Source: Candidatus Zambryskiibacteriota bacterium (GTDB lineage: Bacteria; Patescibacteriota; Minisyncoccia; Phycocordibacterales; DATDWN01). From it: a stretch of DNA of 33,975 nt. Positions 13,030-33,708 of this stretch are shown one piece after another (the first letter of the stretch is position 1; every line of letters starts with the position of its first letter). Location: contig JAPLZY010000017.1 of the NCBI GenBank assembly GCA_026394775.1, positions 1 through 33,975 on the forward strand, in the 5' to 3' direction. The translations under genes and the position numbers were made by a program. Below the pieces are notes generated by a model. That model saw only the letters and a list, made by a program, of their open reading frames with translations, ran no database searches and was not told the DNA's origin.

Positions 13030-13434
13030 ATGAGTATTAACTTGGAAGATTTTGCCCAAGGTATAAAGAACTTAGAAGAGAAGAAGGCGATGATTCACCT
13101 TATTCTCAATCGACTAAAGCCTGCGATTGAGGAGTTGGTTGAAAAAGATACTTGTGGTAGCTACGGAATTTTTAAATTAAGGGACAATTGCGGTTATTCC
13201 TTAGAGTTGCTTAGTCCGACCGCAAGTTCCCCAAACTTTTCCCTTGCTTTTCAGACTGAAGAGGTTGGGTTCTATATTATGATTATGACGGATTCAAAAC
13301 CATATACGGGGAATGATATTAGTGACTACAGGATCCCTAGCCTTTATGGATTTTTGGAATCTCTCATCAACAAGGTGGCGGAACTGAGCCCAAAAGCACG
13401 AGATTGGTTTGACTTCGTCGTAACTCAAAAATGA
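13030..13434 (+). CDS. Uncharacterised soluble protein
   Basis: The 134-aa protein opens with an alpha-helical stretch (MSINLEDFAQGIKNLEEKKAMIHLILNRLKPAIEELVEK), followed by a likely beta-rich half and a C-terminal helix. No TM segment, signal peptide or recognised motif is present. Unlike most genes here it has a strong ribosome binding site (AAGGAGAAGGAAATG) and a leader of about 35 nt, so it is translated by the Shine-Dalgarno route. It stands alone between a palindromic promoter region and a terminator. Confidence 0.65.
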   Translation: MSINLEDFAQGIKNLEEKKAMIHLILNRLKPAIEELVEKDTCGSYGIFKLRDNCGYSLELLSPTASSPNFSLAFQTEEVGFYIMIMTDSKPYTGNDISDYRIPSLYGFLESLINKVAELSPKARDWFDFVVTQK

Positions 13435-13521: not shown

Positions 13522-13805
13522 GTAACTATATCTCATTTTTTGAAGAGATTTCTCTGCGCCCTTGGCGCCTAAGTCTGAAATTCGAGACCGTTTACAGGTA
13601 AGCTTATTCTGTAGACAAGTTATAGGGCCTCGAAACCTTCAGGAGTATGTAATTAGACCTACTCTAAACTATCACAGGAGTTTCGTAGTCGAGCAAATTT
13701 CTAGACGGACTAGAAAAATAATTTAAGCCGTACTTGTCGTACGGTGAGAATTATTTTTTGAAGTCCAACAACGAAATTTGCCGAATACGGAAGTCCAGTT
13801 AATTT
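13522..13805 (+). ncRNA. Long structured 5' leader of the DEAD-box helicase mRNA
   Basis: The stretch of about 285 nt has no ORF and holds several hairpins. GCGCC-CTT-GGCGC lies at about 13557-13569. TTCGAG / CTCGAA encloses a stem of GTTTACAG with CTGTAGAC. Then comes the 92-nt hairpin repeat (13691-13782), ending 23 nt before the ATG. Leaders of this sort on cold-shock RNA helicases are often self-regulating in other bacteria (for example deaD/csdA mRNA). Control by the helicase itself or by temperature is an inference. Confidence 0.55.
13691..13782 (+). repeat. 92-nt hairpin element, copy A
   Basis: The element folds as nested arms: GCAAATTTC/GAAATTTGC, GGACT/AGTCC, AAAAATAATT/AATTATTTTT, and tip CCGTAC-TTGTC-GTACGG. 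Its reverse complement recurs at 20695-20786 with 80 of 92 positions identical by hand alignment. No coding capacity or transposase. Confidence 0.8.
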
Positions 13806-15041
13806 ATGTATACAAAAAATAAAGGTGGATATGGTGGAGCGCGACCCACTTTCGGCTCCCGTCCATCTTTCGGCTCACGACCTACATCACGGTTTGCACC
13901 ACGCCGACCCGTTAAAAGAGGGCAAGCGTCTTTCAATGACGTTTCTCGATTTATCAATAAAGTTATTGTAACTGAAGAAGCAGAAGTTTTTGTGCCTGAG
14001 CATGCATTTGGCGACTTTGCTGTTCATGATGCTTTGAAAAAAGTGATTGCACTTAAAGGCTACACTACACCGACTCCGATCCAGGACAAATCAATTCCAC
14101 ATATACTTGCTGGTCAAGATATCGTAGGGATTGCAAACACTGGAACAGGGAAGACTGCAGCATTTCTAATCCCGCTTATTCACAAAGTGATGACGGGTAT
14201 TATGGCAAAGCAAAACGAACAGGTGCTTATTGTAGCCCCTACTCGTGAGCTTGCGATCCAGATCGACGCTGAATTCAAAAAATTTACTGATGGACTCAAC
14301 CTTTACTCAGTCTGTGTTGTAGGTGGTGCTCCCATCAACAAACAAATCCGAGATCTCCGGTACCAAAATGATTTTATAATCGGTACGCCAGGACGAATCA
14401 AAGACTTGATGGAACAGGGGTATATAAACCTTTCAAAATTTAATACAATAGTACTCGACGAAGCAGACCGAATGCTCGATATGGGATTTGTAGAAGATAT
14501 GCGCTTTATGATGGCTAAAATGCCCAAAGTACGACATACACTTTTCTTCTCAGCGACTCTTTCAAAAGAAATCGAGCAACTGATCGGAGAGTTCTTAAAC
14601 AATCCGATGCGAGTATCTGTGAAAACACGAGATACATCTAAAAATATTGATCAAGACGTAGTGCGAACAAGAGGTTTAGACAAGCTCGATGTGCTTCATG
14701 ATATTTTGAATCAGCCAGAATGTGACAAAGTGATTATTTTCGGACGAACAAAACATGGAGTAGAGCGTCTCACTGAAATGCTTGCAAAGCGAGGCTTTAA
14801 AGCCGATGCAATCCATGGTGACAAAAATCACACGGGACGTCAGCGAGCACTTACTAAATTTAAAGAAAGCCAGGTTCAGATTCTCGTCGCAACAGATGTT
14901 GCTGCTCGAGGACTCGACATTCCAAACGTTTCTCATGTGATCAACTACGATCTTCCGTCTACGTACGAAGACTATGTTCACCGAATTGGACGAACGGGGA
15001 GAGCTGGGAAGCCGGGGAAAGCCCTGACCTTCATTGACTAG
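13806..15041 (+). CDS. DEAD-box RNA helicase
   Basis: The 411-aa protein carries all helicase motifs in order: the Q motif (TTPTPIQDKSIP), motif I ANTGTGKT, Ia PTRELAIQ, II LDEADRMLDMG, III SATLS, then IV-VI ending in DVAARGLDIP and HRIGRTGRAG. The N-terminus is rich in Gly, Arg and aromatic residues (GGYGGARPTFGSRPSFGSRP), an RNA-binding type tail that CPR and other bacteria usually place at the C-terminus. The protein stops about 12 residues after motif VI (GKALTFID), so there is no C-terminal extension. It unwinds RNA with ATP, with likely roles in ribosome assembly or decay. The long structured leader suggests regulation at the RNA level. Confidence 0.92.
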   Translation: MYTKNKGGYGGARPTFGSRPSFGSRPTSRFAPRRPVKRGQASFNDVSRFINKVIVTEEAEVFVPEHAFGDFAVHDALKKVIALKGYTTPTPIQDKSIPHILAGQDIVGIANTGTGKTAAFLIPLIHKVMTGIMAKQNEQVLIVAPTRELAIQIDAEFKKFTDGLNLYSVCVVGGAPINKQIRDLRYQNDFIIGTPGRIKDLMEQGYINLSKFNTIVLDEADRMLDMGFVEDMRFMMAKMPKVRHTLFFSATLSKEIEQLIGEFLNNPMRVSVKTRDTSKNIDQDVVRTRGLDKLDVLHDILNQPECDKVIIFGRTKHGVERLTEMLAKRGFKADAIHGDKNHTGRQRALTKFKESQVQILVATDVAARGLDIPNVSHVINYDLPSTYEDYVHRIGRTGRAGKPGKALTFID

Positions 15042-16492: not shown

Positions 16493-16495
16493 TAT

Positions 16496-16656
16496 AAAGA
16501 CTTTTTATTCATCATAAGTTTTCTGGGGCAATCTATCTAGCCCTGCTGGGCTAGCGAACTGCTCGTTGCTCAAGAAAATTATAAATGGATTACCATTTTA
16601 ATTTTCTAAGCTCCTGTGCAAGGCCCCAATAAACTTATAATTAAACAAAGTCTTTT
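16496..16656 (+). repeat. 161-nt branched inverted-repeat element between msrA and msrB
   Basis: Outer arms AAAGACTTT/AAAGTCTTT and TAAGTTT..GGGGC/GCCCC..AAACTTA enclose two inner hairpins. These are CTAGCCC-TGCT-GGGCTAG and GAAAATTA(T)AAATGG-ATTA-CCATTTTAATTTTC. This looks like a multi-branched RNA or cruciform DNA. No ORF. It starts 4 nt after the msrA stop and ends 16 nt before the msrB ATG. Confidence 0.7.
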
Positions 16657-16672
16657 AATTAATTAAAAATAT

Positions 16673-20646: not shown

Positions 20647-20675
20647 ACTATACCTTGGATTAAGACATGGTACAA
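20647..20675 (-). promoter_or_regulatory. Promoter of the pseudouridine synthase gene
   Basis: On the minus strand TTGTAC, 17-nt spacer, TATAGT; the ATG (20638) is 8 nt downstream. The promoter lies beside repeat copy B. Confidence 0.6.
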
Positions 20676-20694
20676 TAAGAAGAACTCCACATCT

Positions 20695-20786
20695 GACAAA
20701 TTTCGTTGTTGGACTGCAAAAAATAATTTCCACCGTACAGCGAGTACGCCTACAATTATTTTTCTAGTCCGCCTAGAACTTTGCTC
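20695..20786 (-). repeat. 92-nt hairpin element, copy B (inverted relative to copy A)
   Basis: The minus strand reads GAGCAAAGTTCTAGGCGGAC... and aligns without gaps to 13691-13782 with 12 mismatches. AAAAATAATT/AATTATTTTT, GGACT/AGTCC and the CGTAC/GTACG tip are kept. It lies in the divergent region between the pseudouridine synthase and FKBP genes. Confidence 0.8.
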
Positions 20787-21288: not shown

Positions 21289-22491
21289 ATGAAGCCTATC
21301 CTATTTAAGATAGAAAAAAAGTTAGAGGGCAAACTCGGGCGAACTGGGGTTTTGTCGACTCCGCATGGTGACATACAAACCCCTGCTTTTGTGACCGTGG
21401 GCACTAAAGCCACTGTCAAAGCGCTCACTCCTGAAATGGTCAAAGACTTGGGTGCTCAGGTGGTGCTTGCCAATACGTATCATTTGTATTTAGAACCCGG
21501 AGACGGGATTGTGCGTGATGCAGGAGGTATACAAAAATTTATGAATTGGAAGGGTCCAACGATGACCGACTCAGGAGGTTTTCAAGTTTTTTCTCTGGGA
21601 GCTGCATATGGAAACGGCTTGGGGAAGATTTTGAAACGTGGAAAAGAAGAGCTTGCATTGCCAGTACTAAACGAAGAGATGTCTCGCAAAGCGATCATCG
21701 ACCCAAATGGAGTGATGTTTCGTTCTCACATCGACGGCTCTTCGCACTACTTCACTCCAGAAAAAAGTATTGAAATCCAGCATAATCTCGGAGCTGACAT
21801 GATTTTTGCTTTTGATGAATGCACTTCACCTCACGAGTCCGACCATTACCAAGGAGAAGCACTGGATCGTACACATCGCTGGGCAAAGCGTTCGCTCGAA
21901 TATCACAAGTCAAAACCAAATAAAGATACACAGGGGCTTTTTGGAATTGTTCAAGGTGGGAGAAGTGAAAAACTTCGTAAAGAAAGCGCGGAGTTTTTGG
22001 GTACATTAGATTTTGACGGATATGGTATCGGAGGCTCATTTGAAAAAGAAGATATGAACAAAGCGGTGGAGTGGTGCAACAGCGTGCTACCTGAAGACAA
22101 ACCAAGACATTTGCTAGGTATTGGTGAGCCAATGGATCTGTTTGGTGCAGTGGAAAACGGCTGTGACCTTTTTGACTGTGTGGCGCCAACACGCATGGGA
22201 CGCAATGGAGGAGTGCATACACGAGACGGCAAGATCAACCTCGGCAATGCAGAATACCGCACTGACTTTACTCCAATAGATGCAGAGTGTGGATGCTATA
22301 CATGTAAAAATTATACCAAAGCGTACTTGGCACACCTTTTCCGCTCGAAAGAAATGCTCGCGGGGACTTTGGCATCAGTTCACAATCTGTATTTTATTAT
22401 TCATATGGTAGATACGATGCGCGAGGCGATAGGGAATGACACTTTTTTTGAATATAAAGAGGAGTTTTTGAAACGGTATTATCGGAAGTAA
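21289..22491 (+). CDS. tgt: tRNA-guanine transglycosylase
   Basis: Tgt exchanges G34 in GUN anticodons for preQ1 on the route to queuosine. The 400-aa protein shows TDSGGFQVFSL, FAFDECTSP, GIGGSFEKEDM, LGIGEP, the nucleophile-bearing DCVAPTRMGRNG and the zinc site CGCYTCKNYTKAYLAHLF. It is about 20-25 residues longer than E. coli Tgt, mostly through an insertion after the substrate loop (AAYGNGLGKILKRGKEELALPVLNEEM). No queuosine biosynthesis genes lie nearby, so the substrate could be guanine-like bases scavenged from elsewhere. ATG 21289 follows TATTGT by 6 nt; the track's GTG 21283 is less likely. Confidence 0.95.
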   Translation: MKPILFKIEKKLEGKLGRTGVLSTPHGDIQTPAFVTVGTKATVKALTPEMVKDLGAQVVLANTYHLYLEPGDGIVRDAGGIQKFMNWKGPTMTDSGGFQVFSLGAAYGNGLGKILKRGKEELALPVLNEEMSRKAIIDPNGVMFRSHIDGSSHYFTPEKSIEIQHNLGADMIFAFDECTSPHESDHYQGEALDRTHRWAKRSLEYHKSKPNKDTQGLFGIVQGGRSEKLRKESAEFLGTLDFDGYGIGGSFEKEDMNKAVEWCNSVLPEDKPRHLLGIGEPMDLFGAVENGCDLFDCVAPTRMGRNGGVHTRDGKINLGNAEYRTDFTPIDAECGCYTCKNYTKAYLAHLFRSKEMLAGTLASVHNLYFIIHMVDTMREAIGNDTFFEYKEEFLKRYYRK

Positions 22492-22574
22492 ATTATTCGT
22501 GCCTTGTGTGAAAAATATCTTTATGTAAGTATACAAGCAGATCTGGTTGTCAGATCAAATCCAAGGAGGGTCCA

Positions 22575-22616
22575 ATGAAGACCTTTACCGTGGAGGTGAT
22601 CCAGAAGATTCGGTAG
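22575..22616 (+). CDS. 13-residue micro-ORF
   Basis: ATG AAG ... TAG encodes MKTFTVEVIQKIR. The ribosome binding site (AAGGAGGG) is one of the best in the window, far better than those of most real genes here. Product function unknown; possibly it is translation of this ORF that matters rather than the peptide. Confidence 0.4.
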   Translation: MKTFTVEVIQKIR

Positions 22617-22659
22617 TTCCCATCCTAGGGAAACAAGGAGGTGGTGCAGGTGACATAAA

Positions 22660-22690
22660 GGCGGTCTTGCCCGACAAGACCGCCTTTTCT
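22660..22690 (+). terminator. Intrinsic terminator
   Basis: GGCGGTCTTG / CAAGACCGCC (10 bp, loop CCCGA), followed by TTTTCT. Confidence 0.9.
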
Positions 22691-25201: not shown

Positions 25202-25258
25202 GGCCTACCTATTGTTTTTTTATTAAAAATATAGCATAGTATTTTTAGGAGAAAACTT

Positions 25259-25750
25259 TTGCACTTTATTGTTTCAGAAAGAATTTCTAGATATCAAAAC
25301 GTTGAGCTCTTCTTTGAAAATCAGTTTGCTCGTATGCCAGGGTGGTTTAAAGCTAAAGTGGCAGGGCATGTGATTGTGCTTGTGGGAACGAGTACTGAAG
25401 TAGTAGACCGCATGGAATCCCATTTATCTCGCCCTTTGCCCAAAAGAGTCATCAAAATCATTTCTGTAGTAAATCATGGAAGTACTGTTGTAAGACTTTT
25501 CGCAGGCCTGCTGAGAGAGGTTTTAGAAGCAGATGATGCTCTTAATCAAAAGTTCGCAGAACATGTGGTGGCAATAAAGAAAAGCAGCCTCTCTCTTCAG
25601 GAAGAGGGTAATGTTTTGACTTGCCACCTGGTCGCGTTTTATCTCGGGCTACCAGGTGGGATGCATGATGAGGTCCGACATAAGCTCTGCAGGCAGATCG
25701 CCGCAGAGTTTGAAGAAATTCAATTGGCTGCTCAAGGCACCCTCGTATGA
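25259..25750 (+). CDS. Uncharacterised 163-aa protein (TTG start)
   Basis: The start is TTG, supported by a strong Shine-Dalgarno (TTAGGAGAaaacttTTG). A plausible promoter is TTGTTT-17-CATAGT, about 20 nt upstream of it. The protein is soluble, mixed alpha/beta, with a C-terminal helix and no motif I recognise. The stop codon lies within a terminator hairpin. It stands between uvrB and uvrA but with its own signals, so a link to excision repair is not shown. Confidence 0.6.
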   Translation: MHFIVSERISRYQNVELFFENQFARMPGWFKAKVAGHVIVLVGTSTEVVDRMESHLSRPLPKRVIKIISVVNHGSTVVRLFAGLLREVLEADDALNQKFAEHVVAIKKSSLSLQEEGNVLTCHLVAFYLGLPGGMHDEVRHKLCRQIAAEFEEIQLAAQGTLV

Positions 25751-28590: not shown

Positions 28591-28893
28591 TTAGTGGGCG
28601 ACGCCGTTTACCACCTCTTCGGTTTGAGGTAATGCCTGGGCCGACGGAGTGATTACTGGCTCGGTGAGAATTTCGAATAACTCATTGAACTTCTCGTGAA
28701 GTAGCCTTACGTTCTCCGTTAGTTCTTCGATTCTGCTCCCGGTACCTAACCCTTTAGGTTCGAGAACACGAGTTCGGGCATGGTCTGACATGCTCCGGGC
28801 ACCCGAGTTTTTTGTTGCGTCAGTGAGTTCTTGAAACTCTCCTTCACTAACGCGAAAATTTACTATTCGACGGCGTGGCGTTTTGACTGCCAT
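28591..28893 (-). CDS. Ribbon-helix-helix-type DNA-binding protein (MobC/CopG-like)
   Basis: The 100-aa protein starts with a basic arm and a beta-strand-helix-helix pattern typical of ribbon-helix-helix folds (TPRRRIVNFRVSEGEFQELTDATKNSGA-RSMSDHARTRVL). It resembles the N-terminus of plasmid mobilisation MobC proteins or CopG repressors. A helical coiled-coil segment (SRIEELTENVRLLHEKFNELFEIL) could mediate oligomerisation. The start has a strong GGAGGG 8 nt upstream. It is transcribed away from uvrC and their promoters overlap, so it may regulate itself and uvrC (inference). Confidence 0.65.
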   Translation of the reverse strand: MAVKTPRRRIVNFRVSEGEFQELTDATKNSGARSMSDHARTRVLEPKGLGTGSRIEELTENVRLLHEKFNELFEILTEPVITPSAQALPQTEEVVNGVAH

Positions 28894-28932: not shown

Positions 28933-30213
28933 ATGAATCGTCAACAAGCCTTAGATCTCATAAAGAAATTTCCCGATACACCTGGTGTGTATTTTTTCCG
29001 TAGTGGTTCAGATGTCCTGTATATCGGCAAAGCCACATCTTTACGTGACAGAGTAAAAAGCTATCTTTCTTCTGATATCACAGTCACTCGAGGTCCGAAG
29101 ATTGTCAAAATGCTCACTGAATTTGATTCAATTACAGTTGAAAAGACTGACTCAGTGCTCGAAGCACTTCTTATGGAAGCGCATCTTATAAAAACATATC
29201 AGCCACTTTACAATACCAAAGAAAAAGACGACAAAAGTTTCTACTATGTCGTCGTGACCAAAGAAGATTTCCCTCGAGTACTTTTGGTGCGAGGGCGAGA
29301 TGTGCTTGTTTCCGCACTTTCAAAAGAGGGAACTAAAAAGATAGATTACAAAATCGCTCAGTCCTTCGGACCGTTTCCTTCAGGTCCCACTATTCGAGAA
29401 GCACTCAAACTGATCAGAAAAATATTTCCATATCGAGATAAATGCACACCGTGTATAAAAAACCCTACACCTGGTGTAGGGGACAAATGTAAACCTTGCT
29501 TCAACAGACAGATCGGACTTTGCCCAGGTGTATGTAGTGGAGAAATCACACAAGAAGATTACAACCTTGCTGTGGGACACATTGTCAGGTTTTTTAGAGG
29601 TGAGAAAAAAGCCATCATCAAAGATTTGGAAAAACACATGAAGGCTTTGGCTAAAGAAAAAAGATTTGAAGAAGCGGGGAAAGCAAAACACCAGATTTTT
29701 GCACTCAATCATATTCATGATGTCTCGCTCATTAAAGAAGAAAGCTGGGAAGAGAAAACTCCAAGAGGTTTTCGTATAGAGTCCTATGATATCGCCCACA
29801 TGTCAGGGGCAAATGTTGTCGGAGTGATGACTGTCGTAGAAGACGGTGAGATTGAAAAAGCAGAATACAGAAAATTTAAGATTAAAGAAGACCCAGGGGT
29901 CAACGATACAAAAGCGCTCAAAGAAGTGGTGCGACGAAGACTCGGACACAATGAATGGAGACTTCCCGGGCTCATTGTAGTAGACGGTGGCTTGGCACAA
30001 AAGAGAGCGGTGGAGGCAGTGCTCAAGGAAAACAAGGTAGGGATACCGGTCGTATCTGTCGTAAAAGACGAGCGACACAAACCAAAAGAGATCCTGGGGG
30101 ACCGGGCGTATTTGGTATATGAGAAAGAAATATTACTTTCAAATGCCGAAGCACATCGCTATGCGATTGGCTTTCATAAAGAGCTCCGAAGTAAGGGGAT
30201 GAGGGGTACTTGA
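28933..30213 (+). CDS. uvrC: UvrC-type excinuclease subunit lacking the C-terminal HhH domain
   Basis: UvrC makes both incisions around a lesion. The 426-aa protein has the GIY-YIG domain (GVY 18-20, YIG 30-32, SLRDRVKSYL), the Cys-containing linker (CTPCIKNPTPGVGDKCKPC, GLCPGVC), a UVR motif (EKRFEEAGKAKHQIFAL) and an RNase-H-like domain (IESYDIAHMSG, LIVVDGGLAQ, ERHKPKEI). It ends soon after AHRYAIGFHKELRSK, so the tandem helix-hairpin-helix domain of about 600-aa UvrC proteins is absent. Both catalytic domains appear complete. Such shortened UvrC is, as far as I know, common in CPR genomes. Confidence 0.93.
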   Translation: MNRQQALDLIKKFPDTPGVYFFRSGSDVLYIGKATSLRDRVKSYLSSDITVTRGPKIVKMLTEFDSITVEKTDSVLEALLMEAHLIKTYQPLYNTKEKDDKSFYYVVVTKEDFPRVLLVRGRDVLVSALSKEGTKKIDYKIAQSFGPFPSGPTIREALKLIRKIFPYRDKCTPCIKNPTPGVGDKCKPCFNRQIGLCPGVCSGEITQEDYNLAVGHIVRFFRGEKKAIIKDLEKHMKALAKEKRFEEAGKAKHQIFALNHIHDVSLIKEESWEEKTPRGFRIESYDIAHMSGANVVGVMTVVEDGEIEKAEYRKFKIKEDPGVNDTKALKEVVRRRLGHNEWRLPGLIVVDGGLAQKRAVEAVLKENKVGIPVVSVVKDERHKPKEILGDRAYLVYEKEILLSNAEAHRYAIGFHKELRSKGMRGT

Positions 30214-30238
30214 CAGTTTTTATATACCATGCTATACT
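30210..30238 (+). promoter_or_regulatory. Near-consensus promoter of a candidate small RNA
   Basis: Perfect TTGACA (30210-30215), exactly 17 nt, TATACT (30233-30238). TTGACA overlaps the uvrC stop (TGA 30211-30213). No ORF follows within the next 240 nt. Confidence 0.85.
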
Positions 30239-30244
30239 TTATCA

Positions 30245-30403
30245 CAGTGAACTGAACGAAGTTCATAAATAGTACTTTTTTAGAGAAAACTTTTCCTGCC
30301 AGGCACCCCCAATTTGCCCACCAAAATGCTCCTTAGTAAAAGCCCCTCATTTCCTCATTAAAAAGTTTTCTCAATCCCGCACACTTGTGCGGGATTTCAT
30401 TTA
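30245..30403 (+). ncRNA. Candidate small RNA of about 160 nt with a C-rich loop
   Basis: The transcript would start near 30245 and end at the terminator. It holds a small hairpin (TGAAC-GAA-GTTCA), then a perfect 12-bp stem GAGAAAACTTTT (30283-30294) / AAAAGTTTTCTC (30361-30372). That stem encloses a 66-nt, mostly unpaired, C-rich and G-poor loop with CTCCTT, CCCCTC and TTCCTC, sequences complementary to Shine-Dalgarno sites. The terminator follows directly. There is no ORF. I cannot match it to 6S, SRP, tmRNA or RNase P. Confidence 0.65.
30373..30403 (+). terminator. Intrinsic terminator of the candidate small RNA
   Basis: AATCCCGCAC / GTGCGGGATT (10 bp, loop ACTT), followed by TCATTTAT. 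Confidence 0.8.
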
Positions 30404-30469
30404 TAAAAAAATTAAATACTTCGAAACAAAAAAATGAAAGGGTGAAGTATACAGACGGCTCATGTCGCA

Positions 30470-30478
30470 TGATATAAT
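30470..30478 (+). promoter_or_regulatory. Extended -10 promoter of ddl
   Basis: TGA-TATAAT ends at 30478, 6 nt before ATG 30485; a leaderless start is expected. Confidence 0.6.
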
Positions 30479-33433: not shown

Positions 33434-33506
33434 TGGACCCTACAGGACTCGAACCTGCCACCCCATCATTGCAAATGATGTGCTCTACCAGATGAGCTAA
33501 GGGCCC
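33434..33506 (-). tRNA. tRNA-Ala (anticodon UGC)
   Basis: A 73-nt cloverleaf: acceptor GGGCCCT/AGGGTCC (one G-U), D-arm GCTC-ATCTGGTA-GAGC, anticodon arm CATCA-TTTGCAA-TGATG with anticodon TGC, T-arm GCAGG-TTCGAGT-CCTGT, discriminator A. The 3' CCA is not encoded (the sequence continues CAGAAAA), so it must be added by a nucleotidyltransferase. Confidence 0.95.
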
Positions 33507-33599: not shown

Positions 33600-33664
33600 G
33601 TCAGCCTCCGATCTTGCGAAGTGATAACATCACTCCTCACCCTACCAGATGAGCTAAGAGCCCC
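33600..33664 (-). pseudogene. Degenerate tRNA-Ala-like remnant
   Basis: On the minus strand GGGGCTCTTAGCTCATCTGG repeats the acceptor and D-arm of the neighbouring tRNA (17 identical nt, CTTAGCTCATCTGGTAG). It is followed about 20 nt later by an anticodon-loop-like TTCGCAA. No anticodon stem or T-loop can be drawn, so it is not a working tRNA. Confidence 0.55.
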
Positions 33665-33667
33665 TAA

Positions 33668-33708
33668 AACTTTGCGGAGCAAAGTTCGGTCGACCTGCTG
33701 CTGCAGGT
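33668..33708. repeat. Two adjacent hairpins next to the tRNA remnant
   Basis: AACTTTGC-GGA-GCAAAGTT and ACCTGC-TGCT-GCAGGT. These resemble, in inverted order, the GCAAAG/CTTTGC and TGCT-loop hairpins at 33318-33390. Confidence 0.5.

Follow-up and report, generated by a model that had tools for sequence, protein, structure and literature searches.

A promoter-to-terminator unit at the 3' end of uvrC in a small Patescibacteria genome

In the tiny genome of a member of the Patescibacteria, two housekeeping genes, uvrC and ddl, are separated by a stretch that is laid out as a transcription unit of its own, running from a promoter to a terminator. Is this the gene of a small RNA (sRNA), and how did it come to lie there? 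Judged by UvrC, the nearest relatives that bear a name are Candidatus Zambryskibacteria and other Parcubacteria. The genome spans 753 kb in 32 contigs, and the window, by which we mean the whole stretch of DNA analysed, is the 33,975 nucleotides of contig C31. Little seems to have been published about regulatory RNAs in Patescibacteria, and one limited full-text literature search found no relevant survey of them. The locus suggests that well-formed units of promoter, RNA, and terminator can be recent and lineage-specific, and the uvrC-ddl junction may offer a convenient place for watching small units come and go.

Anatomy of the unit

The features of the interval, all on the plus strand, are as follows.
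30184 to 30213, plus strand: in-frame 3' end of uvrC (LRSKGMRGT-stop), read here as a replacement copy
30210 to 30238, plus strand: sigma-70-like promoter, TTGACA-17-TATACT, matching 11 of 12 consensus positions, with TG before the -10 box
30247 to 30266, plus strand: 5' hairpin of the predicted transcript, from folding, with a 7-bp stem and a 6-nt loop
30283 to 30372, plus strand: perfect 12-bp stem with a C-rich, G-poor loop of 66 nt (26 C, 7 G)
30373 to 30403, plus strand: intrinsic-terminator-like hairpin (30373 to 30396; 10 bp, 4-nt loop) followed by a weak U-tract
30419 to 30445, plus strand: remnant of the ancestral uvrC 3' end (LRNKKMKG-stop), contiguous with the conserved upstream region of ddl
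30473 to 30478, plus strand: TATAAT in the promoter that belongs to ddl, 6 nt ahead of its ATG; conserved in G001, a genome of the same genus

The promoter-to-terminator anatomy described in the initial annotation is genuine. The promoter is there, with its TG extension, a TTGACA box at 30210-30215 that overlaps the uvrC stop codon, and, after a spacer of 17 nt, a TATACT box at 30233-30238. Likewise present are the perfect 12-bp stem (arms 30283-30294 and 30361-30372, enclosing 66 nt) and the three motifs assigned to its loop, CTCCTT at 30329-30334, CCCCTC at 30343-30348, and TTCCTC at 30351-30356, in a sequence that is 39% C. The 10-bp terminator adjoins this stem (arms 30373-30383 and 30386-30396), though its U-tract, TCATTTATAA, is weak. 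The annotation had also described the bracketed stretch as free of open reading frames, and the transcribed part indeed holds no frame of at least 20 codons beyond those expected by chance; no convincing promoter for a reverse-strand gene was found on that strand at the unit. The 5' hairpin (arms 30247-30253 and 30260-30266) was absent from that annotation. The unit thus has its own promoter and its own intrinsic terminator, both recognized by consensus only, and lacks a protein-coding frame, as an sRNA gene should.

We infer that the unit is transcribed, and it probably makes one short RNA. Transcription from 30210-30238 would start near 30245 and end near 30400, giving a single terminated RNA of about 155 nt, predicted to consist of the 5' hairpin, the stem displaying its long C-rich, G-poor loop, and the terminator hairpin. 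The label of sRNA is plausible on this layout. As an account of the anatomy, the initial proposal of a candidate small RNA was fair; the conservation that it named as a check was not found, and its targeting mechanism is not supported, as described below.

Such structures are more frequent in this DNA than expected by chance. The whole window contains 3 promoters that match at least 11 of 12 consensus positions, against a mean of 0.85 in shuffled sequence. Perfect 12-bp inverted repeats enclosing 20-80 nt number 3 (mean after shuffling 0.13), and there are 12 perfect hairpins with stems of 9 bp or more (mean after shuffling 1.0). The RNA of the unit folds well compared with shuffled sequences (z of -5.4), and because the other intergenic regions of the window reach z values of -2.6 to -7.8, its fold is ordinary here and the excess of structure is no special property of the unit. 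Fold scores alone do not single out functional RNAs in intergenic DNA so rich in hairpins.

Could the unit be a cis-regulatory leader of ddl? This is unlikely. The unit ends in a terminator, a separate and conserved TATAAT lies 6 nt before the ddl start, and the unit is absent upstream of ddl in G001. Because ddl retains its own -10 box next to its start both in the genome of the window (G000) and in G001, we regard the unit as separate from ddl.

Homologues and the uvrC-ddl junction

No Rfam family matches the unit at the gathering threshold, and a permissive scan returned chance matches only. From this one sequence and its structure we built a covariance model, R1; such a model would miss relatives with a diverged loop. 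Searches with it found no convincing copy other than the unit itself in 17 genomes of the family, 297 of the order, and 384 of the class. Two weak matches at the class level (E of 0.0016 and 0.007 in 384 genomes) are at chance level and were rejected as homologues, their alignments lacking the loop or a consistent layout; a match within the window, at 22438-22519 (20.6 bits), lies across the 3' end of tgt and was discarded. A DNA search of 60 relatives gave, the own copy aside, only a promoter-sized match in G010, and searches of IMG/VR with exact patterns, and of phages and plasmids, gave no match. There is no second copy in the own genome and no pair of terminal inverted repeats flanking the unit, which speaks against a MITE-like repeated mobile element.

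The flanking genes tell a different story from the loop. uvrC occurs in 51 of 61 genomes and ddl in 55 of 61, and many genomes of the order have the two side by side, with only a short spacer between them. In G001, which is 81% complete and the only other genome of the genus compared, uvrC directly abuts ddl and leaves no room for the unit. The initial annotation had named conservation of stem and loop downstream of uvrC as a check, and the loss of the loop beside kept flanking genes as a finding that would refute it; this is essentially what the comparison with G001 shows, and no convincing homologue turned up elsewhere. Conservation or covariation in relatives, the usual though not strictly required support for an sRNA, was not found in G001 or by the R1 searches. 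With one copy in one genome, the structure draws support from neither, and this weakens the reading as an orphan RNA. Judged by the genomes available, the unit is local to its own lineage.

The junction itself is not always empty in relatives. Structured units that are unrelated in sequence lie between uvrC and ddl in four members of the family (G003, G004, G006, and G014) and in two genomes of other families (G025 and G038). Because several relatives have such unrelated units there, the junction appears often to gain or keep pieces of this kind. In L162 (G003) and L154 (G014), from two other genera, the junction holds short units with a promoter, a terminator, and C-rich stretches, again with no sequence relation to the unit of the window.

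The junction between tgt and uvrB offers a comparison. At about 22540-22690 of the window it holds a strong Shine-Dalgarno (SD) sequence, a tiny frame (MKTFTVEVIQKIR), and a terminator hairpin, and its counterpart in G001, L177, upstream of uvrB, also has a strong SD, a tiny frame, and a terminator hairpin. The two have the words GGTGATCCAGA and AGGGAAA(CA)AGGAGG in common, a likeness judged by eye on two sequences. Units kept within the genus can therefore be recognized with the present set of genomes, and the one between uvrC and ddl is no such case. Of the two, the tgt-uvrB unit is the more promising as a small RNA or tiny peptide that is conserved.

The probable replacement of the uvrC 3' end

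The comparison with G001 also bears on how the unit arrived. In G001, uvrC ends in LRNKKMRG-stop, and AAGTATACAGACG and the ddl promoter come next. The window contains a homologous end, LRNKKMKG-stop, that lies beyond the unit and outside the gene and runs into the ddl upstream region. This remnant shares 21 of 27 bases with the functional end of uvrC in G001 (51 of 66 when extended up to the ddl start). The end now in frame, LRSKGMRGT-stop, matches G001 at only 12 of 24, and the two uvrC ends of the window are alike at 14 of 24. Identity of uvrC to G001 is even up to 30178, and the window has a segment of about 235-240 bp, roughly 30179 to 30418, that G001 lacks. Probably a piece of about 235 bp was inserted here, bringing the unit together with a replacement for the uvrC 3' end. 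A deletion in G001 between two uvrC ends is the less likely alternative; insertion after the split is simpler, since the remnant still has the look of a coding end that was in use until recently.

The best explanation, in which we place middling confidence, is that a noncoding transcription unit, specific to the lineage and recently acquired, was placed at the 3' end of uvrC on this piece of about 235 bp with its replacement uvrC end. The placement would have occurred after, or near, the split from G001. The unit is possibly an orphan sRNA and possibly only a new terminator of uvrC.

The latter deserves attention. The insert replaces the end of uvrC, and in G001 no terminator hairpin separates uvrC from ddl; the new hairpin might then serve to end uvrC transcripts and uncouple ddl, with an incidental promoter. 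That a promoter matching 11 of 12 positions, with a TG extension, should fall exactly at the uvrC stop is awkward for this proposal, as such sites are rare, and so is the weak U-tract of the hairpin. In read-through RNA, the end of uvrC, AAGGGGATGAGGGG, is predicted to pair with the loop segment CCCCTCATTTCCT, but this pairing ranks only about 100th among 6786 windows for the loop and we did not find it compelling. We consider a replacement 3' untranslated region (UTR) and terminator rather unlikely. Because the 3' end of uvrC could pair with the loop in this way, the unit may still act only as a uvrC 3' UTR.

It is also conceivable, if doubtful, that the acquired stretch is functionless intergenic filler, either a recombination scar or the remnant of a small palindrome-rich element. 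The failure of the family, order, and class searches would fit such an origin, as would the unrelated structured inserts of relatives in this junction and the presence in the window of several palindrome-rich pieces, namely an element present twice (13691-13806 and 20671-20786) and, at 16493-16672, a region bounded by long terminal inverted repeats. Against it stand the single genomic copy, the lack of flanking terminal inverted repeats, and the sensible order and spacing of promoter, RNA, and terminator.

For the acquired unit that we prefer, the plainest way in would be recombination with a related uvrC. Integrative elements that enter tRNA genes and some protein genes provide these with a restored 3' end, and there is a likeness here: the host uvrC keeps a working 3' end and the old end persists as a remnant beyond the insert. 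The insert differs from such elements in being about 235 bp long, having neither an integrase nor high-identity repeats, and being known from a single case; ordinary recombination involving a related uvrC accounts for it equally well. A dedicated mobile cassette is possible, with no second example. Its boldest form would be a tiny mobile RNA cassette of Patescibacteria, made of promoter, structured RNA, and terminator, that enters the 3' end of a conserved gene, brings a replacement end, and belongs to a varied set in uvrC-ddl and similar junctions; this we regard as a long shot.

The C-rich loop and its presumed targets

How might such an RNA act? If it acts at all, its loop might perhaps pair with G-rich stretches of mRNA. 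The initial annotation went further and proposed an anti-SD sRNA, whose loop would block ribosome binding sites of the AAGGAG type, carried by only a minority of genes, those at 13030, 22575, 25259, and 28893. Such an RNA would act in the way of LhrC- or RsaE-type RNAs. The three motifs and the C content of the loop are in keeping with this, and known CU-rich sRNAs, e.g., LhrC, pair with SD regions (PMC4132741). Yet duplexes of the loop with these four starts, the SD-bearing ones within the window that the test covered, are no better than those of 200 shuffled loops, with energy z values of -0.08 (13030), 0.61 (22575), 0.67 (25259), and -0.59 (28893), and at least one anti-SD hexamer occurs in 16% of shuffled loops. 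Complementarity to ribosome binding sites is thus not beyond chance at these four starts. The strongest duplexes of the loop fall elsewhere and probably reflect GC-rich windows. Moreover, the genes at 25259 and 28893 are orphans, found in this genome only among 61, and are hence unlikely to be long-standing targets; the loop itself lacks conservation in the family, order, and class searches. The anti-SD mechanism is not supported, and we judge it improbable.

RsaE is a C/U-rich sRNA of Firmicutes with unpaired segments able to pair with purine-rich mRNA. LhrC, similarly, is a promoter-driven, terminator-ended sRNA with unpaired C/U-rich segments able to pair with purine-rich mRNA (PMC4132741). 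The unit resembles both in having a promoter, a terminator, and an unpaired C/U-rich segment, all predicted from the sequence. It differs in that it has no sequence relation to them (no Rfam family reaches threshold), occurs as a single copy, and has no supported target; its loop lacks the UCCC motif and is long, with 66 nt on one stem.

A further complementarity concerns the stem. Its arm GAGAAAACTTTT is the same as the ribosome-binding region of orf163 (25249-25260), and the 3' arm of the unit is the complement. But the arm is paired in its own stem, and the 12-mer occurs at two more genomic places that resemble coding sequence; the match may serve as a lead only.

Some neighboring features of the window are of interest in their own right. 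The orphan genes with strong SD sequences (25259-25750 and 28591-28893) lie between uvrB, uvrA, and uvrC; no homologues of either were found in 60 relatives, and the second resembles NikA-like mobilization proteins, weakly and below threshold. The palindrome-rich element of 116 nt occurs twice in opposite orientation (13691-13806 and 20671-20786; 80% alike), its copies adjoining a DEAD-box helicase gene and an FKBP-type gene, and looks MITE-like. The 180 nt at 16493-16672, between msrA- and msrB-like genes, have imperfect terminal inverted repeats of about 33 nt (AAAGACTTT...GGGGC) and inner hairpins, and are likewise MITE-like. Finally, at 33642-33673 lies a second, partial copy of a tRNA end (CTACCAGATGAGCTAAG), 157 nt away from the corresponding sequence of the tRNA gene at 33434-33506, which is the only tRNA that Rfam identifies there.
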